In this document: positions 13,941 to 33,330 of the stretch, one piece after another
Layout of the letters: every line of letters starts with the position of its first letter
How positions within the stretch are numbered: the first letter of the stretch is position 1
Origin: Fibrobacterota bacterium
Lineage (GTDB): Bacteria > Fibrobacterota > Chitinivibrionia > Chitinivibrionales > FEN-1185
Direction: 5' to 3'
Assembly (NCBI GenBank): GCA_003165595.1
Contig: PLWQ01000023.1
Span: 84,876-141,411, forward strand
DNA: 56,536 bases
The notes under the pieces: generated by a model
Databases searched by the model: none
What the model was told of the DNA's origin: nothing
Seen by the model: only the letters and a program-made list of their open reading frames with translations
Program-made: the position numbers and the translations under genes

Positions 13941-15281
13941 CTATATCACGTCGGTGCCTTTCTTGATCACCCACAACGCGCCCACCTGCTCGTGAAATTT
14001 CTCAATTGGCAATTTTGTCTTGAGCACGCAATTGAAGAAGTTGTATTTTGCAAGATTGAAATCCACGATGTCGCTTGTGAGGTCGGCAAACAGTTTTGTT
14101 CCCGGCATGGGCGTGAGGATGGTGTATCCCGCGTAGGTAACCTTCTGCGACGACGCGTAGTCGGCAAGAGCCTTGAAATCTTCCTCTCCATAATCGGGCG
14201 GCACCACGTAGTTGCCCCGTACCGAAATGCCATTTTCGTGAAACACCGAGATGGCGCTCTTGATGAGCGAGGCGTCGAGTTTCTTATTGTACAGCGCAAG
14301 CTCGCTCTGCCGGAATGACTCGAACCCGCAAATTACCACTTTGAGCCCGGCGCGCGCCATCTGTTCCACGAGCTTCGGATTTTTCGCTGCCGTGTCCACG
14401 CGGATGTCCATCACGAATTCCTTGTCGAGCTTCTCATCAGCGATTTTGGCAAAGAGCCGCGCCGTGTACGCCTCATCGATCACCGAATTCGCGTCTGCAA
14501 ATCGAACGATGCCGTACTCGGAAAGTGTTTTTAGCTCCGCAATAATGCTGTCGATATCTCGCAGGTAGTATTTGCCGTCCCACTGGGGCCAGATGGAGCA
14601 GAACGAGCATTTGTAGGGACAGCCGAGGGAGGTGTTGATGTAGGTGACATTTTTGTCGCTGTGTGGCATGCGGTATGCATGGAGCCACCTGCGGATATAA
14701 GAACGGTCGGGAAGGACGTAGCCGTCTTTGCCATAATCCTTTGCAAGCGGCGGCTGCGGGGAGTGAACAAAGCCTTGCGGTGAATTGACAAAGGTCCCGG
14801 GCACGCGGCTGCAATCCGCGTTTGCCGCTTTTGCGAGAACGATTTCCCTGAAGGTGTGGCCAGCCTGCCCGACGGCAACGATGTCTGCGGCGGTTTCCCT
14901 GAAATCCTCGGGGCACAATGAGGCGTGGAGGCCGCCGGCAACGGTGAGGAGGCCGGGGTTCCATTGCTTGACTGCCTGCAGTATCTGCATGGCGTAGGGG
15001 AATTCGGATGCGATGCAGGTGACGCCGACGATATCGGGCCCGGTGTCCCGGCAATACTGTTTGACAAGATCGGCCGGCGGCGCGGCCTTCGGATTCATGT
15101 CGTATTCGGCCTTCATGTCCAGAACCGTCACGTTGTGGTCGGCGACGGCCGAAGCAACGGTGAGCAGTCCCAGCGGCGGCCCGATGAGCTTCTTGTGGAT
15201 AAAGCGCTTTGCCGCCTCGGGCGCGTACGCGAGGATGGCGTTCTCGGGCGAACGGGGAGGATTAACCAGGAGAATGTTCAT
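13941..15281 (-). CDS. B12-binding-domain radical SAM protein
   Basis: A 446-residue enzyme. The N-terminal cobalamin-binding-like domain (about 1-150; starts MNILLVNPPRSPEN, with GPDIVGVTCIASE and VAGGLHASL) is followed by a radical SAM domain with the cluster motif CPYKCSFC near residue 200 and a C-terminal extension. Members of this class perform difficult methylations, ring formations or carbon-skeleton changes, many on lipids (HpnJ/HpnP/BchE relatives). The ATG at 15281 overlaps the stop of the PPTase gene (ATGA), and that gene overlaps the ACP gene. The three therefore form one translational unit, which strongly suggests an acyl-ACP-bound substrate. The exact reaction is unknown. Confidence 0.85.
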   Translation of the reverse strand: MNILLVNPPRSPENAILAYAPEAAKRFIHKKLIGPPLGLLTVASAVADHNVTVLDMKAEYDMNPKAAPPADLVKQYCRDTGPDIVGVTCIASEFPYAMQILQAVKQWNPGLLTVAGGLHASLCPEDFRETAADIVAVGQAGHTFREIVLAKAANADCSRVPGTFVNSPQGFVHSPQPPLAKDYGKDGYVLPDRSYIRRWLHAYRMPHSDKNVTYINTSLGCPYKCSFCSIWPQWDGKYYLRDIDSIIAELKTLSEYGIVRFADANSVIDEAYTARLFAKIADEKLDKEFVMDIRVDTAAKNPKLVEQMARAGLKVVICGFESFRQSELALYNKKLDASLIKSAISVFHENGISVRGNYVVPPDYGEEDFKALADYASSQKVTYAGYTILTPMPGTKLFADLTSDIVDFNLAKYNFFNCVLKTKLPIEKFHEQVGALWVIKKGTDVI

Positions 15282-15685
15282 GCCGCGTCCAGGAGGTACA
15301 CGATTGCGGTGCACTGGCCCTTTACCGGCGCAAGAATCTTGACGCACGGCATCACGCCGGGGTGGTCGGCCGCAAATCGCGGCGACAGGGCAAAAGAACC
15401 TTTTCCGAGGTTGCGCCCCGGAAGAAATTCGCAGTCTGTAAAGTTGTACGGGCTTCCCAGCGCCTTAAACAGGGCCTCTTTGACACAGAACGACGCGCAC
15501 AGCCCAACGGCGGGATCGGGCAGCCGCCGGCAGCGGGAACGTTCGCTGCTTGTGAAGACGAACGGCATGAAGCGGGATCGGTCGCGGGCCATCCGGCGAA
15601 ACCGGGCGACGCGTTCCGAATCGATGCCGCAGGACAGGAGGCGGCGGCAGGAGTCAGACGTCCAGGTTAACGATGTCGTCGCCAT
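15278..15685 (-). CDS. AcpS-type 4'-phosphopantetheinyl transferase
   Basis: Transfers phosphopantetheine from CoA to the Ser of an acyl carrier protein. 135 residues with the hallmark GIDSERVARF (metal-binding Asp) near residue 20, FTSSER, and FCVKEALFKALGSP (second acidic ligand, Glu of KEA). The C-terminal strand corresponding to the usual S-x-S-H region is divergent. It overlaps the ACP gene by 32 bases and the radical SAM gene by 4, so the ACP is the obvious target. A second, degenerate AcpS-like gene lies at 27651-28088. Confidence 0.85.
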   Translation of the reverse strand: MATTSLTWTSDSCRRLLSCGIDSERVARFRRMARDRSRFMPFVFTSSERSRCRRLPDPAVGLCASFCVKEALFKALGSPYNFTDCEFLPGRNLGKGSFALSPRFAADHPGVMPCVKILAPVKGQCTAIVYLLDAA

Positions 15686-15962
15686 GTCTCACGATTTTGA
15701 GTGTGAGGTCCACCACCTGACCGATGGTGGCTGCGGGTTTCCTCATGAGGTGCTTGCCGAGCGTCTTGAGCTCTATCTTGAGACCGTACTTCTTGCGCAC
15801 GATTTCGAGCAGGGACAGGAGCATGAGGGAATCTCCTTCGAGTTCCTCGATGATGTTGGTGGCGTCGGTGAGTTTTGACGATTCTATGTCGCACTCTTCC
15901 GCAAAAAAGTCGTACACCAGCGCGCGGATTTCGGCTTCCTGCTGCTTGTCGGAATCGGGCAT
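15654..15962 (-). CDS. Acyl carrier protein
   Basis: A 102-residue, mostly acidic helical protein with the phosphopantetheine attachment motif EGDSLMLLSLLE (Ser45) and the preceding ATNIIEELEG helix cap, as in type II fatty-acid and polyketide ACPs. The last ~20 residues extend beyond the usual ~80. The ATG at 15962 has AGGAG nine bases upstream and is preferred over an in-frame GTG at 16022 with no Shine-Dalgarno. It is followed by an overlapping PPTase and then the radical SAM gene. It is the only ACP in the window and so the likely carrier for the plus-strand KS/AT/HCDH/ECH operon (inference). Confidence 0.88.
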   Translation of the reverse strand: MPDSDKQQEAEIRALVYDFFAEECDIESSKLTDATNIIEELEGDSLMLLSLLEIVRKKYGLKIELKTLGKHLMRKPAATIGQVVDLTLKIVRHGDDIVNLDV

Positions 15963-21972: not shown

Positions 21973-22146
21973 ACCTGATGCAGTTTTTGTCTTTGCTGCA
22001 CGGTGATTTCAGGTTAGCGGAGGTCTGGCCTTGCTCGTGGTCGAAAGAGCCCAAACTTTTGGCCTTCGATTCCCGAATCGATGCCGTCCCCGAAATCTCC
22101 CATGCCGCTGGATTTCCCGTCCCTGTTTCGTGTATTTTATCCCTTC

Positions 22147-22560
22147 ATGAAATCACCGCTGCACGAGTTTTGCGTCCCCGTAACCGTCGAATTCGAAGAC
22201 GTTGATTCGTACAGAATTGCGCATCACACGAAGCTTGTTTCCTACCTCGAACGCGCCAGGGTGCGGTATTTTTCGAGCCTGGGGTTCGTTCTTTCTGCAG
22301 CAGACATGACCGTGGTGCTGTACCACCTGGAAATGAGTTTCAAGAAGCCCGCGTTTTTTCAGGACGAACTCACGGTAACGGTGTCTCTCAAATCATTTGA
22401 CAATTTCCGCATGGTGTTGTATTATAAAGTCCGCAGGAACAAAGATCTTATCGCGCGGGCTTCAACGGGCCTCTGCTTTGTCGATCCGGTTACCAAGAGC
22501 ATGATACCCGCGCCGGACAAATACGTCGAGAAAATCAACGCGCTCCTGCCCACCCCTTAA
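22147..22560 (+). CDS. Acyl-CoA/acyl-ACP thioesterase, hotdog fold (4HBT-like)
   Basis: A 137-residue single-hotdog protein. VTVEFEDVDSYRIAHHTK followed by YLERARVRYFSSLG matches the 4-hydroxybenzoyl-CoA/YbgC thioesterase pattern: the catalytic Asp in the EDVD turn, the His-x-x-x-Tyr helix and the ERAR motif. The rest (YHLEMSFKKPAFFQDELTV) fits the family. It would release or edit acyl chains from a carrier. First of an eight-gene plus-strand operon, 19 bases before the ketosynthase. The ATG at 22147 gives a normal family N terminus; an upstream ATG at 22081 would add 22 unrelated residues. Confidence 0.82.
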   Translation: MKSPLHEFCVPVTVEFEDVDSYRIAHHTKLVSYLERARVRYFSSLGFVLSAADMTVVLYHLEMSFKKPAFFQDELTVTVSLKSFDNFRMVLYYKVRRNKDLIARASTGLCFVDPVTKSMIPAPDKYVEKINALLPTP

Positions 22561-22579: not shown

Positions 22580-23788
22580 ATGGCTGATTCCATCGTGATA
22601 ACCGGCCTTGGGCTTGTATCGGGCCTGGGCCTCAACTGCGCCTCCTGCTGGAGCAGCCTTGTGGCCGGTGCTAACCCGGTGCGCCCGTTTACCTTGTTCG
22701 ATCCGAAAGACCTGACCTGCAATTTCGGCGTGGAACTGCCTCCGGAATCGGAAGCTCTTTTTTCGACCATAAAGCCGCGCAGTCGTTCGCAAATGACTCG
22801 ATCTACCATGATCTCGGTAATGGCCGCCGACATGGCCATCGCCGACGCAGGCCTGGCGGGCAGCGCAACAGATTCGGCGCGCATCGGCGTGGTTACCGGC
22901 GCGACAGGAACGGGATATTTTTGGGACAAACCGGGGAAAGACGAACACCGAATCCTCAAGAACATGGCCAATGCCTCGTCGTCGTGGATAAGCCTGCGCA
23001 ACAAGTTCCACGGCCCGTCGTATACGGTGAGCACCGCGTGTTCGTCGGGCGCGTACGCGCTGGCCGGAGCCATCGACCTCATCCTGTCGGGCCAGTGCGA
23101 CGCGGTTGTCGCGGGCTCGGCCGATTCGTCGATAAACTACGCGGACGTCGAAGGGTTCCAGAGCATCATGGCCCTGGCCGAGGACCGGGACGACATTGGC
23201 CGGGCCTGCCGTCCTTTCGATGCCACGCGCAGCGGCTTCGTCATGGGAGAAGGCGGCGGCATGCTTGTTGTCGAATCGGAAGATCACGCAAAGAAGCGGG
23301 GCGCCAAACTGTATTGCAGGTTGTTTCGACCCGGATTGTCGAGCGAGGCGTACAACATGCTGTCTCCGCAGCCGGGCGGCGCGGGCATGGCGATCGCCAT
23401 GGAGCGCGCGCTTGCCAACGCCCGAATGTCGCCTCCCGACATCGACTACATTAACGCGCACGGCACATCTACGGGATACAACGACGTGTATGAGACGCAG
23501 GCGATAAAGACGGTATTCGGCGCCTCGGCGGCGTCGATTCCCGTTTCGTCAACAAAGCCGCAAACCGGGCATTGCCTTGGCGGCGCGGCGGGCGTCGAGG
23601 CGGTAATCTCCGTTTTGGCGCTGTGCGAGAACATGGTCCCCGCAACCCTTAACCTGCGCACGCCCGATCCCGAGTGCGACCTCGATTACGTCCCGAACCG
23701 GTGCCGGCCCAGGCAACTGAACGCGGTGATGTCGAATTCGTTCGCGTTCGGCGGCCATAACGGCGTGTGCATCGTTGCACGAGTATGA
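22580..23788 (+). CDS. Beta-ketoacyl-ACP synthase, KAS I/II type
   Basis: Condensing enzyme of 402 residues that extends an acyl chain by decarboxylative Claisen condensation. The full Cys-His-His triad is visible: Cys154 in STACSSGAYAL, NAHGTSTGYND, and STKPQTGHCLGGAAG. A Gly-rich C terminus (SNSFAFGGHNGVCIV) completes the fold, so it is likely active. It is shorter and more divergent at the N-terminal half than housekeeping FabF, which points to a specialised pathway. Its stop overlaps the next gene (ATGA). The thioesterase precedes it. Confidence 0.9.
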   Translation: MADSIVITGLGLVSGLGLNCASCWSSLVAGANPVRPFTLFDPKDLTCNFGVELPPESEALFSTIKPRSRSQMTRSTMISVMAADMAIADAGLAGSATDSARIGVVTGATGTGYFWDKPGKDEHRILKNMANASSSWISLRNKFHGPSYTVSTACSSGAYALAGAIDLILSGQCDAVVAGSADSSINYADVEGFQSIMALAEDRDDIGRACRPFDATRSGFVMGEGGGMLVVESEDHAKKRGAKLYCRLFRPGLSSEAYNMLSPQPGGAGMAIAMERALANARMSPPDIDYINAHGTSTGYNDVYETQAIKTVFGASAASIPVSSTKPQTGHCLGGAAGVEAVISVLALCENMVPATLNLRTPDPECDLDYVPNRCRPRQLNAVMSNSFAFGGHNGVCIVARV

Positions 23789-24897
23789 CCCGCCCCGTTT
23801 ATATCGCCGGAACCGGCGCCTTTCTTCCGGGCGATCCGATACCCTTTGACAAAATCGACGCGGTGCTGGGCACGCTCGACCAAGCTCCCGCCGCGGTGCA
23901 AAAATGGTATGCGTCAAGCAGCGCGGTGATGCGCGAGATTCTCGACGTTTCGTATGTCCACTATGCCCTGGACCCCCTCACCCGCGAGTTTACGGAAGAT
24001 AACGTCACCATGGCTGCGAAGGCCGCGACGTCGGCGCTTTTTGCCGCGGGCATGGACGCCCCTGCCATCGACCTCATCTGCTACGGCAGCGCGCACCAGG
24101 ACCAGATGCCGACCGCCTCGGTGCGCATCCAGGAGGCCCTCGGCATAGAACGCTGCGACGAGCTGTCGATCCACGCGAACTGCACCTCGGCCTACAAGGC
24201 CCTGTACTGCGCTCATCAGCTCATTGCGTCCGGAAAGAACGAAAACGCGCTCGTGGTATCGGCGAACATCTCCTCCTCGGAGCTGCGCGCCGAGTACTAC
24301 AACCAGGCGCTTGTCGACAAGGAATCCCTGTTCCTGCGGTGGTTTCTGTGCGACGGCGCCGGAGCCGTGATCCTCACCGCGGACCCCGGAAAATCCGCCG
24401 GGTACGAGCTGGAACACACGTTTATAGAATCGGTGGGCGGAAAGCGGCCGTCGCTCATGTACAACGAGCGGCCCGCGCTGTGGCTTCCGCCAAACCAGGA
24501 GTTTGCCGAGGGCCGCCATCACCTGCGGCAAAAGTTCCGCAATTCCCTGTCGACGTCGGTGTTTCAGGAGAAGGGCGGTTCGGTGTTCTTTAACGGTCTG
24601 GGCCGCATGCTTGGCCGCGGCGGCATTCCGGTGGACACAATCAGAATTTTCCAGGTAAACATGCCCGCCAAGCACATCATAGAATCCATAATGGATGAGT
24701 GCGTGACGATCGGCATCCGGCGTGAGGCGCTGTACTCGCGTCTGCACGATCTGGGATACTGCGGTCCGCCCATGGTGTTTATATGCCTGGACAAAATCAT
24801 GAGGGAAGAACGGCTGGAGCCAGGTGAACGGATCGTGAGTTTCGTCACCGAAGTGAGCAAGTTCATGCAGGCGGGGTATTCTATTGTCAAACGATAA
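23785..24897 (+). CDS. KASIII-like (FabH-fold) acyltransferase with altered active site
   Basis: A 370-residue thiolase-fold protein with nucleophile Cys133 in HANCTSAYKALYCA and the FabH-type N terminus (VYIAGTGAFLPGD). The two other FabH catalytic residues appear to be missing. The segment equivalent to PHQANLR reads FQVNMPAKH, and that equivalent to GNTSAAS reads GYCGPPM, so the His and Asn positions are changed. Decarboxylative condensation therefore seems unlikely. Acyl transfer, priming or a non-decarboxylating role is more plausible (inference from alignment by eye). The start ATG overlaps the KS stop (ATGA). Confidence 0.8.
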   Translation: MTRPVYIAGTGAFLPGDPIPFDKIDAVLGTLDQAPAAVQKWYASSSAVMREILDVSYVHYALDPLTREFTEDNVTMAAKAATSALFAAGMDAPAIDLICYGSAHQDQMPTASVRIQEALGIERCDELSIHANCTSAYKALYCAHQLIASGKNENALVVSANISSSELRAEYYNQALVDKESLFLRWFLCDGAGAVILTADPGKSAGYELEHTFIESVGGKRPSLMYNERPALWLPPNQEFAEGRHHLRQKFRNSLSTSVFQEKGGSVFFNGLGRMLGRGGIPVDTIRIFQVNMPAKHIIESIMDECVTIGIRREALYSRLHDLGYCGPPMVFICLDKIMREERLEPGERIVSFVTEVSKFMQAGYSIVKR

Positions 24898-25825
24898 TTC
24901 CGGCGCGCCGGGCGCCGCCGCGTTCGTTTTTCCCGGCGTGGCCGTCGAACCCAGCGGCGCCGAGGCGGCATTCTTCGACAAGCACCGGGGCGTTATGGCC
25001 CCGTTTATCGCGCAGGCCTCCGAGGCTGCGGGAGTAGACCTTGCCGAGGTTTGCGGGCACGGCGGTCTGGCCGGTCTCGACGAAAGAAACAGCCAGTTGT
25101 TTACCGTTGCGTACTCGCACGGCGTGGCCATGGTTCACGTCGACGCGGGCATTGTGCCTGCGGTACTGGCCGGTTATTCCCTCGGGGTGTATGCGGCGCT
25201 GTCGGCATCGGGAGCGGTTGCGTTTGGGGACTGCCTGGCCCTTGCCGCCCTCGCCTACGACCTGATGCGGCGGGAGTGCGGGGGCGCAGCGTATGCGATG
25301 GGCGCCGTCGTCGGCTTGACCGAAGAAGAAACCCGCGGCATGCTCGCCTCCGGCGCGTTTCCAACGGTGCGCCGGACCAATACCAACAATGCCACCTGCG
25401 GCGTCTACTCCGGCGCGGCCCCGGACATAGCCGGCTTCTTCGACGCCGCCCGCAGCAGGGGAGCGCTTTCCACGGTAACATTCGACGTGAGCATTCCATA
25501 CCATCATGCCGATTTCCTCGGCGGGGCCGCGCAACGCTTTCTGGACGCGGTGAACAAGGTGGCCTGGCGCGACTCGCCGGTCCCCGTTGTTTCGTCCATA
25601 GACCAGAGATCACTTGTAAAGGCCGCCGATCTGGCCGGGTTTGCCGCTCAGAACATCGCCTCGCCCGTCAATTGGCAAAAGGTCGCGGAGACCATCGCCG
25701 CCATGGGCGTCACCACCGCGTACGAATGCGGGCCCGGCATTTCCCTGTGCCAGAACGGCAGGTTTATCGAACCGCGCCTGCGGTATGTTACCGTCAGGAA
25801 ACTCGTGCGGAGAGAATCGCCGTGA
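24884..25825 (+). CDS. Acyltransferase-like protein (FabD/AT fold), probably not malonyl-specific
   Basis: A 313-residue alpha/beta-hydrolase-like acyltransferase. The nucleophile is Ser99 in LAGYSLGVYAAL, where the usual GHSxG has His replaced by Tyr. The catalytic His is in VSIPYHHADFL. The Arg that binds the malonyl carboxylate in FabD (Arg117 of the E. coli enzyme) aligns with Ala in ALAYDLMRREC. Its loss suggests a non-carboxylated substrate such as acetyl or another acyl group, or an editing role. A TTG start, overlapping the KASIII-like stop by 14 bases, is used because no ATG lies near the conserved N terminus AAFVFPG. Confidence 0.78.
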   Translation: MSNDNSGAPGAAAFVFPGVAVEPSGAEAAFFDKHRGVMAPFIAQASEAAGVDLAEVCGHGGLAGLDERNSQLFTVAYSHGVAMVHVDAGIVPAVLAGYSLGVYAALSASGAVAFGDCLALAALAYDLMRRECGGAAYAMGAVVGLTEEETRGMLASGAFPTVRRTNTNNATCGVYSGAAPDIAGFFDAARSRGALSTVTFDVSIPYHHADFLGGAAQRFLDAVNKVAWRDSPVPVVSSIDQRSLVKAADLAGFAAQNIASPVNWQKVAETIAAMGVTTAYECGPGISLCQNGRFIEPRLRYVTVRKLVRRESP

Positions 25826-26886
25826 AGAAGAGCATCTGTATCGCCGGGAGCGGAAAGATCGGCCGCGACGCGGGCATGTTCTTTCTCACGCGCGGCCACG
25901 CCGTGCACTGGGTGTCGGGCAGTGAGGACCGCATCGTGGATTTGCAGGCGTGGGTGACCAAGCGCGTCCACCTGTTTCTCAAGCGCAACGCCGGTGGGCT
26001 GCGGGAGATAAGCGCCTGTTTCGGCCTGTACGAGGAGCTGGAAGACGAATCGTTCGACGTGGTGTTCGAATGCACGAACGAATCGCTTAAAGTCAAGCGA
26101 GACGCTTTCCTGCGCCTTGCCGGACGGCATTCCCCCGAGGCGCTGCTGTTTTCCGCGTCGTCGTCCATTCTTCCCTCGGCCATTGCGCAGGAGTGCTGCG
26201 GCCTGCACGTGTTTTATCCCCTGGAGCTTGCCGGTGTTGCCGAGCTTATCGTTCCGGCCGACCTGCCGCCGGTCAAGCGCGACGCGGCGATTACCTTTTG
26301 CAAAGAAAACGGTCTTGCCGCCATTGTGCAGAGCGAGGCGACCGCCTTTGCGGTGAACCGCATGCTCCTGCCGCTGCAAAATGAGGTGTTCCGGGCGCTG
26401 TGCCGCGGGGTCTGCTCCGCCGATGCCGATGCCGCATCGGCTTCGGATCTTGTCGGCGTCGGCATGTGCGAATTCGCGCGGGGCGTGGGGCCGGCAGTGG
26501 TCGCCGCCGCCGTGGAAAACTATCGCTCGCGCATGAGCGCGGCCGAGTCGGAGCTCTACGGTCCGCTTTCTTCGGGCCTTGCCGCTTTCGACGCGTCGTT
26601 GGACGGCTGGAAGGCCGCCAAACCGCTTGCCGCAAGCGAGCGGGACGCGATGGCAACGTCCCTGTATTATCTTTTTATCAACACGTGCCTGCGGTTCCTT
26701 GAGCGCGGCGACCTGTTTGGGGCGGATCTCAATTGCGCGCTAGACCGGGTGCTTGGAGCGACAACGACGCTCGAAGAGGCGGTGTCGCGCGCGGGCAAGC
26801 GCACTATTGCGGCCGCGCTGCGGGCCGTCCGCCTGTCGGGCGGGGCCGAGTATTTCGAACCGTCGGCGCTGCTTGACGCAGAGTAA
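25822..26886 (+). CDS. 3-hydroxyacyl-CoA dehydrogenase family protein
   Basis: An NAD-dependent oxidoreductase of 354 residues that would act on a 3-oxo/3-hydroxyacyl thioester. Its Rossmann start is ICIAGSGKIGRDAGMFFLTRGH, a variant of the usual G-x-G-x-M-G. VVFECTNESLKVK matches the family E-x-x-E-x-x-x-x-K motif. The catalytic His lies in LHVFYPLELAGVAELI and the Asn in AVNRMLLPLQNEVFRA. A helical C-terminal domain follows, about 190-354. The GTG start overlaps the acyltransferase stop (GTGA). The operon has no SDR-type ketoreductase, so this enzyme may do the keto reduction, working as a beta-oxidation enzyme in reverse (inference). Confidence 0.85.
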   Translation: MKKSICIAGSGKIGRDAGMFFLTRGHAVHWVSGSEDRIVDLQAWVTKRVHLFLKRNAGGLREISACFGLYEELEDESFDVVFECTNESLKVKRDAFLRLAGRHSPEALLFSASSSILPSAIAQECCGLHVFYPLELAGVAELIVPADLPPVKRDAAITFCKENGLAAIVQSEATAFAVNRMLLPLQNEVFRALCRGVCSADADAASASDLVGVGMCEFARGVGPAVVAAAVENYRSRMSAAESELYGPLSSGLAAFDASLDGWKAAKPLAASERDAMATSLYYLFINTCLRFLERGDLFGADLNCALDRVLGATTTLEEAVSRAGKRTIAAALRAVRLSGGAEYFEPSALLDAE

Positions 26887-26937
26887 CGACCCATGGGTGC
26901 GCGGGTTGCCCGTGCACAACCCTTTCCGGAAACTCGC

Positions 26938-27654
26938 ATGAAGCTTGTTTACTCACTGGAAGGTTCAATCGGCCGGATCGTCCTTTGCAATCCGCCGTAC
27001 AATTATTTGCCCGAGCCCGGGTTCGAGCGTCCGGAAATACTTCAGGATTTCTTTTCACAACCGCAGCTTCGGGCCGTGATCGTCGCCGGCAGCGGCCGGC
27101 ATTTTTGCGCCGGCGCCGATCCGCAGGCGCTCTTGCGGATGCTTCGCGACGGTGACGCGCTCCGCCGCAAGCTCGCCGACGGCAAAGCCCTGCTCGACAT
27201 CATTCGCTATGCCACGGTGCCGGTCGCTGCGGCGATACGCGGCAGTTGCCTGGGCGGAGGCTTCGAGATCGCGCTCGCCTGCCATTTTCGGTTTGCCGCG
27301 ACGTCGGCGCTGTTTGGTTTTCCGGAATCGGGGCTTGGCGTGCTGCCGGGGCTGGGCGGCACCGTGGCGTCGCAGGAAACGGCGCATCGCGCCGGCGTGA
27401 TAGACTTGGCTGTGTCCGGCAGGATGATCGGGGCCGCAGAAGCGGTTTCGATGGGGCTGGTTGACAAAAGCTGCGAGCCCAGGGCCGTTGAGAACGAGGC
27501 CGGGATGTTTCTGGAACGGCTCACGGCGGGCAGGCCGGCGCCGCTGGTGAGAAGAATAATGGAATCTATTCACAATGCCCGGCGTTTTCCCATGGAAAAG
27601 GCGCTGTCGCGCGAGACCGAATTGTTCTGTGAAGCGGCGCGGGGCTCGCAATGA
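26938..27654 (+). CDS. Enoyl-CoA hydratase/isomerase (crotonase), first copy
   Basis: A crotonase-fold protein of 238 residues, slightly short for the family (~260). The oxyanion-hole segment RHFCAGADPQAL and the second element GSCLGGGFEIALAC are intact. Both acidic residues of true hydratases are present: Glu in GGGFEIA and Glu in FPESGLGVLPGLGGT. It could hydrate or dehydrate an enoyl/3-hydroxyacyl thioester, or act as a decarboxylase or isomerase as paired crotonases do in beta-branching cassettes. The ATG at 26938 gives the normal N terminus. It follows the HCDH by 51 bases and overlaps the AcpS-like gene (ATGA). Confidence 0.88.
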   Translation: MKLVYSLEGSIGRIVLCNPPYNYLPEPGFERPEILQDFFSQPQLRAVIVAGSGRHFCAGADPQALLRMLRDGDALRRKLADGKALLDIIRYATVPVAAAIRGSCLGGGFEIALACHFRFAATSALFGFPESGLGVLPGLGGTVASQETAHRAGVIDLAVSGRMIGAAEAVSMGLVDKSCEPRAVENEAGMFLERLTAGRPAPLVRRIMESIHNARRFPMEKALSRETELFCEAARGSQ

Positions 27655-28088
27655 CGCGCTCACCAAAAAAGGCCGGGGGGCGCGGCCGCAGAGACGTCAA
27701 ATTCCCCGGGCGCGGCGTTGTGCGCACCTGTCTCGAAATCGTTCCGATAGCGTATGTCAAGAGATCCCGCGGGCGCGCCATGCGGTCCGCGTTTTCCCCG
27801 GCTGCGGCCGCGACGCTGTCGCAGGCTTCGCCGCAAACGGTTGCCGGGCTCATTGCGGCGAAAAAAGCCGCCGCGGCGATCGTTGTTTCACTCTGCGGCG
27901 GCCGCGTGCCGTTGCGGGATATCAACCTGGCGCACGCGGCCGGCGGCGCCCCGCGCCCGGGAGGGCTGCCGCGGGGGGCGCGCGTTGCCGTAGCGGTTTG
28001 GCGCGACATTCGCATATCGATTTCCCATACCGCAACCCATGCATTCGGATGTGCCGCGGTCTTTACAGAAGAGGTTCCCCATGCCTGA
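27651..28088 (+). CDS. Degenerate AcpS-like protein
   Basis: A 145-residue very basic, GC-rich protein whose layout follows holo-ACP synthase. VRTCLEIVPI aligns with the GTDIVEI opening, LIAAKKAAAAIV with the AVKEA helix, and the C-terminal ISISHTATHAFGCAAVF is a near-perfect AcpS ending. Both metal-binding acidic residues are lost: the Asp of the first motif is Thr, and KEA reads KKA. Catalysis is therefore doubtful, and it may instead bind or position the ACP (inference). It overlaps both neighbouring crotonase genes (ATGA before, 8 bases after), so it is under selection as part of the operon. A normal AcpS-type gene lies at 15278-15685. Confidence 0.65.
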   Translation: MTRSPKKAGGRGRRDVKFPGRGVVRTCLEIVPIAYVKRSRGRAMRSAFSPAAAATLSQASPQTVAGLIAAKKAAAAIVVSLCGGRVPLRDINLAHAAGGAPRPGGLPRGARVAVAVWRDIRISISHTATHAFGCAAVFTEEVPHA

Positions 28089-28686
28089 AAGGCACGTTGC
28101 GCTCCATTGCGAAGGGACGACGGCTTTTCTCACGTTATGCGCGCCCCCGAAGAACGAGATGGGAGCAGCGTTCTTTGATGAACTTCTGCGACTTGTCCCG
28201 GCCATCGAACAGTTGCGCGTAAAGGGGCTGGTGGTACGCGGACAGGGACGGCATTTCTCATCCGGGGCGAACCTTCGTGACTTGCGCGCCATGCTCGGCA
28301 AGGAAAATGCCGCGGAGGGCATGCGGTCGCTGCGGGATAACAGCAGGGGATTTTGCAGCCTGGCCGCCCTGCCGTTTCCGACGGTTGCCGCCATCCAGGG
28401 GTGCTGTCTGGGCAGCGGACTGGAGCTCGCGCTTGCCTGCACCTTCCGTGTGGCTGCCAAGAACGCGGTGCTCGGCCTGCCCGAAGCCACGTTCGGCCTT
28501 TTGCCGGGCTGCGGCGGCACGGTGCGGCTCACGCGATTGGCAGGCTACCGCAGAGCAATTGAGTTGATACTGGCCGGCGAGTCTTTGCTCGCGTCCGACG
28601 CACTGGACGCGGGATTGGTCGACGCGGTAGTAGACAAGTCGGACCTTGGATCAACGGCGGTGAGGTTCGTGGAGAGACTCGGATAG
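28081..28686 (+). CDS. Enoyl-CoA hydratase/isomerase (crotonase), second copy
   Basis: A crotonase of 201 residues, clearly shorter than the family norm: it ends soon after the LILAGESLLASDALDAGLVD segment and lacks the C-terminal trimerisation helices. Core motifs are intact: RHFSSGANLRDL, QGCCLGSGLELALAC and GLPEATFGLLPGCGGT, including both Glu positions. It starts at an ATG with GAGG upstream, overlapping the AcpS-like stop by eight bases. It is the last gene of the plus-strand biosynthetic operon. Two crotonases next to a KS and a KASIII-fold protein recall HMG-type beta-branching cassettes. Confidence 0.85.
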   Translation: MPERHVALHCEGTTAFLTLCAPPKNEMGAAFFDELLRLVPAIEQLRVKGLVVRGQGRHFSSGANLRDLRAMLGKENAAEGMRSLRDNSRGFCSLAALPFPTVAAIQGCCLGSGLELALACTFRVAAKNAVLGLPEATFGLLPGCGGTVRLTRLAGYRRAIELILAGESLLASDALDAGLVDAVVDKSDLGSTAVRFVERLG

Positions 28687-30396: not shown

Positions 30397-30589
30397 GTTG
30401 TGCGCATTCCTTGAAATCTTCCGATAGTTTTCCAGGGTCAAATTGTATCATGCGGCACGGGAAAAGAAAAGGCCGGCCGGCGTTTATCCTGGAGGACCGC
30501 AGGCTGCGTTTTACGGCGACGATTATGTATATTATCAACCGGCCATAGAGGCGATCAAGCCCGGGCCCATCCAGAAAGCAAGCACCATT

Positions 30590-31906
30590 ATGCGTCCAAT
30601 CCCTATTGTGGACATCTCCAACGCCGGCGGCAAACGCGTGATCCGGCGCATCCGTAAATCGCAGCAGGCGCGGGCCGGTCGGGCGCAGGCCGTCGTGGCA
30701 ACGGTCCTTGCCGACGTGGGGCGTCGCGGTGACGCCGCGCTGTTCGCCTATACCAGGAAATTCGACCATGTCGCGGTCTTTGCCGGGAACATCAGGCTCG
30801 ACGCGGCGTATATCCGCGACCGGGCGCACGACGCGCCCGCCGCCTTCAGGCGGTCGTGCGCAGAGGCAGCCAAGCGCATACGCGCGTATCACGAGAGGCA
30901 GAAACCCTGCGAGTTCGTGATGCGGACGCGGGAAGGGCTGCTGTCGCAGATCGTGAGGCCGGTGCGCCGGGCAGGGGTATACGTTCCCGGCGGTTTCGCG
31001 TTGTATCCGTCAAGCGTGCTCATGAACGTGATTCCGGCCCAGATCGCGGGCGTCCGGGAAATCGCGGTAGCCACCCCGCCCCGCGGCGAGCTCGATCCCG
31101 GCATTGCGTTCGCGCTCCGGATGCTCGGCGTTTCCGAAGTGTACCGCATGGGCGGCGCTCAGGCGATTGCCGCGCTGGCCTACGGCACCCGCAGCGTTGA
31201 GGCGGTGGACAAGATTGTGGGTCCGGGCAATTTGTATGTCGCGCTTGCAAAGAAAGCCGTTTTCGGGACCGTGGACATCGACGCGGTGGCGGGGCCCAGC
31301 GAGGTGATCGTACTGGCCGATGGGTCGGCGAATCCCGAGTGGGTTGCGCTTGATCTCCTTGCCCAGGCGGAGCACGGCAGCGGCGACGAAACCGCGTTCT
31401 GCGTCACCGAAGACGCGCGCTTTGCCGCCAGGGTGCAAAGCGCGGTTGCCGCCGAAATAGCGCGGTCGCCGGTTCGCCCGGTGTTCGAGCGGCTTCGCGC
31501 CGGCGCGCTGTGCATTTGCCTGGCGTCAAGCCGCGGCAAGAGTATAGAATTTGTCAACGAATGCGCTCCCGAGCACCTCGAGATCGTCACCCGGAACCCG
31601 CGCCGCGACCTTGCCGGAATCCGCAACGCGGGAGCGGTCTTTATCGGGCCCTATTCGCCGGTTGCGGTGGGCGACTATTTCGCCGGTACCAATCATGTGC
31701 TGCCCACCGGCGGGGCGGCACGGTTTGCCTCCGGACTCGGCGTGGAGAGCTTTGTAAAACGCATGTCGGTTGCCGAGATCAGCAAGGAGGGGCTTGGCCG
31801 CGCCTCCGCGCACGTATCGGTGCTGGCGCGGGCCGAAAAGTTCGTCCATCATGCCCTGAGCGTGGAGCGCCGGACCGGGCGGCAGCCGGCGGGCGATCCG
31901 GCGTGA
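30590..31906 (+). CDS. hisD: Histidinol dehydrogenase
   Basis: Last two steps of histidine synthesis, oxidising L-histidinol to histidine with NAD and zinc. 438 residues. Motifs: VPGGFALYPSSVLMNVIPA, YRMGGAQAIAALAYG, IVGPGNLYVALAKKAVFG, AGPSEVIVLAD, DLLAQAEHGSGDE (zinc ligands) and the general-acid region FVNECAPEHLEI, near the end HVLPTGGAARFASGL. The ATG at 30590 gives the family N terminus. No other his genes are in the window. It is translationally coupled (GTGA) to a B12 radical SAM gene, an unusual partner. Confidence 0.95.
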   Translation: MRPIPIVDISNAGGKRVIRRIRKSQQARAGRAQAVVATVLADVGRRGDAALFAYTRKFDHVAVFAGNIRLDAAYIRDRAHDAPAAFRRSCAEAAKRIRAYHERQKPCEFVMRTREGLLSQIVRPVRRAGVYVPGGFALYPSSVLMNVIPAQIAGVREIAVATPPRGELDPGIAFALRMLGVSEVYRMGGAQAIAALAYGTRSVEAVDKIVGPGNLYVALAKKAVFGTVDIDAVAGPSEVIVLADGSANPEWVALDLLAQAEHGSGDETAFCVTEDARFAARVQSAVAAEIARSPVRPVFERLRAGALCICLASSRGKSIEFVNECAPEHLEIVTRNPRRDLAGIRNAGAVFIGPYSPVAVGDYFAGTNHVLPTGGAARFASGLGVESFVKRMSVAEISKEGLGRASAHVSVLARAEKFVHHALSVERRTGRQPAGDPA

Positions 31907-33330
31907 AGAAAATCCTTCTTGTCAATACAAACACCGAGAGCGCCCCGTACCCGGTCCCGCCGGTCGGGCTGTGCCTGCTCGCCTCAACGCTGTGCAAGAC
32001 GCACGAGGTCCGCATCTTCGACGGCCTGGCCGCCCCGGCCGGATCGCTTCCCCGCGTGGTACGCAGTTTTGCGCCGGACTATGTGGGCGTCGGGATACGG
32101 AACATCGACAGCATCGTTCTGGACAAGCCGGTCTATTACATCGACGACATCCACGAAAAATTCTTTGTGCCCATCAAGCGTGAAACGGACGCCCCGATTA
32201 TCGCGGGCGGCAGCGGATTTAGCGTATTCCCGTTCGAATTGATGGAGCGGTCCGGCGCGGATTACGGCATCGTGGGCGAGGGTGAAGCCGCGCTGGCGCA
32301 CCTTGTTGCGGCTCTTGACAGAGGAGATGCTGCCGCGGGAATTCCGGGTGTTATAAAGGGAAACACCGTCCCGGAGGCGTTTGTCGGGCAGTCGCCGTCG
32401 CTCGACATGGACACGGTCCCGTTTTCGGAAGTCGACCGATGGATCGATTTCTCGCCCTACGCCAGGCGCGGCGCCTATCCGATTCAGACCAAACGGGGAT
32501 GCGGCCATCGGTGCGTGTATTGCACCTACCCGTGCATCGAAGGCGTTTCCTACCGGCGCCGCTCGCCCGAGGCCGTTGCCGACGAGATCGAGCAGGCGGC
32601 GGGCCGCCTTGGGGATGTTACGTTCGAATTTGTGGACTCCACCTTTAATGACCCGCCCGGCCACGCCGAAGCGATCTGCCGCGCGATTATCGGGAAGAAC
32701 ATCACGGTGCGGCTGCGCACCATGGGAATTAATCCCGCGCATGCGAGCAGGGAACTCTTCGACCTGATGCTCGCCGCGGGCTTCTCCCAGATCGACTGCA
32801 CGCCGGATTCCGGATCGTCAACAATGCTTGCCAACCTCAGGAAGAATTTCACCCTGCCGCAGCTCGAAACAACCGCGGACCTCATCCGGCGGGCGAATAT
32901 CCCCACCATGTGGTTTTTTGTGTTTGGCGGCCCGGGCGAAACCGAAAAGACCATCGCGGAAACCTTCGCGTTTGTCGACAAGTGGGTGAACCCGGAGGAC
33001 ATGGTGTACATGATGGCGGGCCTCCGCATATACCCGAACACCGAATTGCACCGCATTGCGCTTCGCGAAGGAATCGTTGGACCTCTTGATCCGTTGCTGC
33101 GGCCCGTGTTTTACCTGTCGCCGCTCGTACGCAAGGATCGCATCGATGCGCTCATGCAGGAAGCCGCGGAAACCCGCCACAACTGCGTGCCTGCGTCGCA
33201 GTCCGCGCCTTCGCCTGCGATGATGCAGCGGGCCATGGAGATGAGGGCGCAGGGAAATGCGCGGGAGCCGATGTTCAGGACTCTTTTGCGGGTGCGAAGG
33301 GAAATGATGAAAGATGGGACGCTGGAATAG
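31903..33330 (+). CDS. B12-binding-domain radical SAM protein, second copy
   Basis: A 475-residue enzyme whose GTG start overlaps the hisD stop (GTGA). The N-terminal cobalamin-binding-like domain, about 1-150, has KKILLVNTNTESAPYPVPPVG and DYVGVGIRNIDSIV. The radical SAM domain has the cluster motif CGHRCVYC near residue 200, followed by TFEFVDSTFNDPP and WFFVFGGPGETEKTI. The C-terminal extension is of unknown fold. Such proteins usually methylate or rearrange unactivated carbons. It is not closely similar to the copy at 13941-15281. It may act with the nearby acyl pathway, or on isoprenoids given ispA downstream on the other strand; neither is shown. Confidence 0.85.
   Translation: MKKILLVNTNTESAPYPVPPVGLCLLASTLCKTHEVRIFDGLAAPAGSLPRVVRSFAPDYVGVGIRNIDSIVLDKPVYYIDDIHEKFFVPIKRETDAPIIAGGSGFSVFPFELMERSGADYGIVGEGEAALAHLVAALDRGDAAAGIPGVIKGNTVPEAFVGQSPSLDMDTVPFSEVDRWIDFSPYARRGAYPIQTKRGCGHRCVYCTYPCIEGVSYRRRSPEAVADEIEQAAGRLGDVTFEFVDSTFNDPPGHAEAICRAIIGKNITVRLRTMGINPAHASRELFDLMLAAGFSQIDCTPDSGSSTMLANLRKNFTLPQLETTADLIRRANIPTMWFFVFGGPGETEKTIAETFAFVDKWVNPEDMVYMMAGLRIYPNTELHRIALREGIVGPLDPLLRPVFYLSPLVRKDRIDALMQEAAETRHNCVPASQSAPSPAMMQRAMEMRAQGNAREPMFRTLLRVRREMMKDGTLE

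Follow-up and report, generated by a model that had tools for sequence, protein, structure and literature searches.

Two AcpS-like proteins with opposite active-site losses, candidate halves of a split phosphopantetheinyl transferase encoded with a biosynthetic cluster in Fibrobacterota

Between the two crotonase genes of a biosynthetic cluster in a Fibrobacterota bacterium (GenBank assembly GCA_003165595.1, contig PLWQ01000023.1; the window, i.e., the whole stretch of DNA analyzed here, comprises 56,536 nt) lies a small gene, here called B, which raises the question of what role a relative of the holo-ACP synthase AcpS lacking catalytic residues could have at this position. A first-pass annotation proposed that B is a catalytically dead AcpS, retained as an ACP-docking or scaffolding protein. 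Its reading of B as a real gene with overlapping frames on both sides was borne out: the ORF encodes 145 aa, its ATG (27651) overlaps the upstream crotonase gene ECH1 (stop codon at 27652-27654) by 4 nt, and its end overlaps ECH2 by 8 nt, counted from the likely ATG of the latter (28081). The features discussed are compiled in Table 1.

Table 1. Genes of the window discussed in the text, with their positions and the evidence for their assignment
Feature	Position	Strand	Evidence
B12-binding radical SAM protein, adjoins A	13941..15347	-	
A, AcpS-like subunit with Asp22, Glu24, Glu70 and Lys74, without Ser-His	15278..15685	-	PF01648, 51 bits; model pLDDT 88.8; Foldseek AcpS; residue table
ACP of the cluster, presumed substrate (LEGDSL)	15654..15962	-	PF00550, 2.8e-06; alignment
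YbgC-type thioesterase	22081..22560	+	
FabF-type ketosynthase	22580..23788	+	
StlD/DarB-like ketosynthase III	23767..24897	+	
Acyltransferase, FabD/MdcH type	24884..25825	+	
3-Hydroxyacyl-CoA dehydrogenase-like protein (start approximate)	25801..26886	+	
Crotonase ECH1 (first ATG of ORF; later start likely)	26893..27654	+	PF00378, 2.9e-30
B, AcpS-like subunit with Ser-His (SISHT) side, without metal Asp, Glu and Lys	27651..28088	+	ORF, profile, residue table, synteny
Crotonase ECH2 (ORF from 28039; ATG 28081 likelier)	28081..28686	+	PF00378, 8.9e-34

The window sequence of B alone scores weakly against every family and the region around it holds many long overlapping frames, which could mean that B is a decaying pseudogene or a frame arisen by chance in GC-rich DNA. 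The search for homologs at the same operon position suggested by the first-pass annotation, however, found an orthologue flanked by the same two crotonases in each of 11 other genomes (G001, G005, G167, G168, G174, G858, G859, G862, G864, G865, and G866), i.e., 12 genomes with the window counted. The order crotonase, B, crotonase is kept in G001, of the same genus as the window, with 41% identity in B, and G005 belongs to the same order; the carriers include members of the Fibrobacterota, Spirochaetia, Deltaproteobacteria, and Kiritimatiellia. Both B (dN/dS of 0.23-0.42, computable for four of the five pairs) and the second AcpS-like protein described below, A (0.22-0.34 in 5/5 pairs), are under purifying selection (overall 0.22-0.42). 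The conservation of the frame between phyla refutes the chance-frame or pseudogene reading, to which we assign next to no probability. A match to B in G051 (E = 1.2e-5) was rejected as an orthologue, being an ordinary complete AcpS, and a search of viral contigs for relatives of B found none.

The first-pass annotation also recognized an AcpS signature at the C terminus of B, and the ISISHT motif found there is real, but the relationship of B to AcpS is only remote. As a single sequence, B gave no AcpS match or anything useful against Pfam, and its matches to the NCBIfam holo-ACP synthase models (E = 0.0014 and 0.013) were far under the cut-off. A profile of 11 B orthologues, on the other hand, matched solved AcpS chains with E = 2.8e-11 (B. 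subtilis 1f7l; profile positions 15-117 of 123), while the Pfam N-lobe model 4PPT_N was matched weakly by 4/11 members (best E = 0.035). A structural model of B, built from two sequences, was too poor (pLDDT 43.8) for its Foldseek list to be used as evidence. By its profile, B is thus a relative of AcpS, but a remote one. In alignments with AcpS controls, the Asp column corresponds to Glu29 of B, in CLEIVPI, so that the replacement of Asp by Thr described earlier was a misalignment, while the replacement of the metal-binding Glu by Lys72 (KKA instead of the KEA of AcpS) was read correctly. The protein carries the Ser-His motif of the neighboring-subunit side and lacks the metal-binding Asp and Glu and the catalytic Lys in its chain, for which reason it was not filed as AcpS and alone should not be a normal AcpS.

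The ACP of the cluster had already been pointed to as a possible partner for B, and it leads to the likely partner A beside it, which was absent from the first-pass annotation although the ACP gene that it overlaps was named there. A PF01648 search of the window genome retrieved one complete AcpS, one complete Sfp-type protein, and a third match, A, inside the window. Its start lies within the ACP gene (32-nt overlap), and the two genes overlap by 20-32 nt in the window and in four further loci (L017, L030, L031, and L038). Relatives of A adjoin an ACP of the same kind in G001, G005, G167, G168, G169, G174, G858, G859, G864, G865, and G866, and PF01648 is matched by 12/12 A sequences. The protein contains the motifs GIDSE and KEALFK, and its C terminus has nothing like SxSH. 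In the AlphaFold2 model (mean pLDDT 88.8, pTM 0.85), for which the best Foldseek matches were AcpS, A is predicted to fold as AcpS. Searches for A found only the match in the genome already known among 387 genomes of the phylum of the Kiritimatiellia genome, and only the two known ones among 296 genomes taken as relatives of the Spirochaetia genome.

We compared the active-site residues after aligning the 12 A and 12 B sequences with those of 24 AcpS controls and with the separated lobes of two Sfp-type proteins, using the Bacillus AcpS numbering of PMC3447402 as assigned here from motifs. All 12 A sequences carry Asp8, Glu58, and Lys62, with an additional Glu two residues past the Asp (D-x-E), and none of them His103 or Arg53. 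In B, Asp8 and Lys62 are both absent (0/12), while His103 is present in 12/12, Ser102 in 10/12 (replaced by Thr in L013 and by Ala in L067), and Arg53 in 6/12. Homologs with a restored Asp or Glu, named in the first-pass annotation as refuting its reading, were found only in part: the Asp in none, and the KEA Glu in 2/12 (L069 and L070), both without the Asp and the following Lys. The AcpS controls, which are distinct full-length HMM matches taken with no motif filter from an HMM itself built on motif-picked AcpS, have Asp, Glu, Lys, Ser, and His in 24/24 and Arg53 in 23/24. In the two Sfp-type proteins, Ser-His is present in both N-lobes and the Glu in neither, with one of them aligning with an Asp and a Lys; both C-lobes contain the Asp, D-x-E, Glu, and Lys but not the His. 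As judged from this alignment, A and B carry opposite defects, each keeping one side of the AcpS active site.

Such a partition follows the architecture known for this family from crystal structures, in which the active site of AcpS lies between subunits (PMC3447402). In Vibrio cholerae AcpS, one subunit contributes Ser111 and Asp112, and the other Asp8, Glu57 (via the metal), and Lys61, to holding the CoA pyrophosphate, while in Bacillus anthracis AcpS the 3'-phosphate is surrounded by Arg45, Arg53, Asn81, and His103; group II enzymes are described as having two domains similar to a pair of adjacent AcpS monomers (PMC3447402). In the human PPTase, the phosphates are bound by Ser110 and His111 and Mg by Asp129 and Glu181, with Lys185 as the acid (PMC2148441). 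B would thus correspond to an AcpS subunit needed only for its Ser-His side, and A to one needed only for the other side. The residues lost from B come from just one AcpS subunit and are kept in A, and the Ser-His is kept in B; the proposal of a catalytically dead AcpS thus stands in so far as B is conserved and devoid of catalytic and metal residues, while its stand-alone docking or scaffold role is unsupported and the reading of B as a dead scaffold is probably wrong.

The two genes also occur together. Among 74 genomes scanned for both, i.e., 77 genomes minus G041, G051, and G165, which were scanned for B and had no A-profile scan, 11 contained both, one only A (G169), one only B (G862), and 61 neither (Fisher p = 3.4e-11), these genomes not being independent and some having been reached because they bear the cluster. 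In the subset sampled as relatives (G001-G040 and G855-G879), seven had both, none only A, one only B, and 57 neither (p = 1.1e-08). A match was called A when it scored well above housekeeping AcpS, and B at >=63 bits, i.e., at least 63 bits, the weaker matches that were looked at being AcpS; in G000-G040 the scan for A used a single protein query and not a profile, so that a divergent A may be missed there. The G862 contig starts within the ketosynthase gene, so that the ACP and A would fall off it. In four related clusters (L034-L037; Bacteroidetes and Chlorobiota records), no A was found beside the ACP, the neighboring crotonases have no B between them, no B match was obtained, and the genomes gave only AcpS matches, of 34-43 bits. 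The two genes are not neighbors, A and B being ~12 kb apart on opposite strands in the window and ~6 kb apart on the same strand in five genomes.

Considering the reciprocal losses, the co-occurrence, the known partition of the active site, the purifying selection, the AcpS fold and profile matches, the overlap of A with the ACP gene, the four related clusters that lack both A and B, and a weak grouping of the two proteins with Sfp lobes in a tree, we propose that A and B are probably the two halves of a hetero-oligomeric 4'-phosphopantetheinyl transferase that makes the ACP of the cluster holo. This proposal builds on sequence logic and co-occurrence, from which we infer the A-B binding, stoichiometry, activity, and ACP specificity. 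A would give the metal-binding and catalytic side, with Asp22, Glu24, and Glu70 for Mg2+ and Lys74 as general acid, and B the neighboring side, with Ser125/His126 gripping the CoA phosphates, so that each half alone would be without part of the active site. The labor would be divided as between neighbors of the AcpS trimer, or as between the N-lobe (B) and the C-lobe (A) of Sfp, but on two genes. The KEA Glu in two B sequences, the Ala or Thr in place of Ser in two others, the presence of A without B in G169, and the separate location of the two genes count against this proposal.

Part of the same evidence could be explained if A alone were an active PPTase, as a homo-oligomer tolerating the loss of Ser-His, and B a separate ACP-docking, chaperone, or regulatory pseudoenzyme helping ECH1 to meet the ACP, which extends the idea of the first-pass annotation by A. 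The cluster of G169 (KS-ACP-A-AT), in which the A-like protein (L033:968-1342) adjoins the ACP and no B was detected, is consistent with this, as are the 4-nt overlap of B with ECH1 in the window, L045, L046, and L047 and the fusion of the two in L038. Besides, the human H111A mutant is described in PMC2148441 as having a lowered CoA affinity and not as losing all activity, so that activity may survive without the His and A might work by itself; a literature search for AcpS H110A/D111A mutants found nothing. A docking protein, however, would not need to keep exactly the Ser-His side, as B does, and A has also lost Arg53, which belongs to that same side; together with the co-occurrence of A and B, this makes activity of A alone an unlikely explanation.

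The complete AcpS and the complete Sfp-type protein of the window genome may serve the ACP instead. One could then suppose that neither A nor B is catalytic, that either of these two enzymes makes the ACP holo, and that the two AcpS-like proteins, as degenerate paralogues, were retained as chaperones of the ACP, as would also fit the related clusters that do without both (L034-L037). The retention of the Asp, the D-x-E Glu, the metal Glu, and the Lys in every A argues instead for selection for catalysis, and in G168 A is the sole PF01648 match found, in an assembly that may be incomplete; we therefore regard non-catalytic roles for both proteins as improbable, more so than activity of A alone. 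That observation in G168 comes from a deltaproteobacterium (L050 and L093).

We give about even chances to the strictest form of the split-enzyme proposal, namely an obligate two-protein PPTase, neither half of which is active alone, dedicated to one carrier protein and representing a living counterpart of the step from the AcpS homotrimer to the fused Sfp, either as a split Sfp or as a duplicated AcpS pair whose members came to share one active site between them. The described classes of PPTases are AcpS homotrimers, Sfp-type monomers, and domains of FAS (PMC3447402 and PMC4103896). The pair shares with AcpS the size, the fold of A, the profile matches of both proteins, and the two-subunit active site described in PMC3447402, whereas each AcpS subunit has both sides and A and B one side each. 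Taken together, A and B have the residues of both Sfp lobes, the N-lobe Ser-His being like B and the C-lobe D-x-E, Glu, and Lys like A in the two examples aligned, and the D-x-E ... E of A is of the three-magnesium-residue type of group II PPTases (PMC4103896). The pair may thus work like an Sfp-type enzyme; it was not filed as such, since A and B are separate genes at separate genomic places in 11 genomes. Group III domains of fungal fatty acid synthase likewise combine an AcpS fold, which the profiles of A and B match, with a tie to a single carrier-protein system, but they are part of the synthase chain, whereas A and B are free proteins except in L038, where B and ECH1 are fused. Searches of the literature, with subscription journals mostly outside their scope, found no description of a split, heteromeric, or pseudo PPTase.

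The pair may have arisen as an Sfp cut in two or as an AcpS pair that divided labor. In the tree, all 11 B rows formed a single clade (95/83), to which both Sfp N-lobes were linked (81/91). Of the Sfp C-lobes, one fell within the A group (11/12 A rows with it, 98/74) and the other was placed elsewhere; B_L047 (90 aa) was left out, the bootstrap had not settled, and the branches are very long, with the program warning against such joins. The A-like protein of G169 branches apart from the other A. The tree thus weakly suggests a grouping of A with Sfp C-lobes and of B with Sfp N-lobes. On the other hand, in profile comparisons with solved chains both A and B were nearer to AcpS than to Sfp types.

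If true, a heteromeric PPTase with its active site on two genes would be a further arrangement beside the AcpS, Sfp, and FAS classes, would provide a direct test case for the relation of the two-lobed Sfp type to AcpS, and would give a role to two genes that are missed or barely reached by standard family models. Should activity require both parts, the pair could conceivably be used as a two-component switch for carrier-protein labeling. The pair also points to an uncharacterized ACP-dependent biosynthetic cluster spread over several phyla.

The genes of this cluster recur in L066-L068 and L070 in the order ACP, A, thioesterase, FabF-type ketosynthase, DarB-like ketosynthase III, acyltransferase, 3-hydroxyacyl-CoA dehydrogenase, ECH1, B, ECH2, and B12 radical SAM protein; in L069, only part of the ACP gene is on record. 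In the window, A and the ACP are encoded on the opposite strand from the thioesterase, ~6 kb upstream of it. Relatives of the B12-binding radical SAM protein that adjoins A in the window come after ECH2 in L038, L066-L070, L116, and L137. The residue two before the DSL serine motif of the ACP is Glu (LEGDSL) in 11/11 clusters read that have A (the window, L017, L018, L030, L031, L033, L038, L066-L068, and L070) and Gly (LGGDSL or MGGDSL) in the 4/4 without A (L034-L037), a difference that may be a marker of PPTase specificity or only reflect phylogeny.

Some further observations concern individual loci. In the Kiritimatiellia record L038, ECH1 and B form a single ORF of 363 aa (L038:8219-9310), with B as its C-terminal part, which represents a natural fusion. 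In both the window (30443-33330) and G001, the cluster is followed by genes for histidinol dehydrogenase and for a second B12 radical SAM protein. In a Spirochaetia locus, an ORF after A (L030:6883-7173) resembles, by eye, a second, different ACP.
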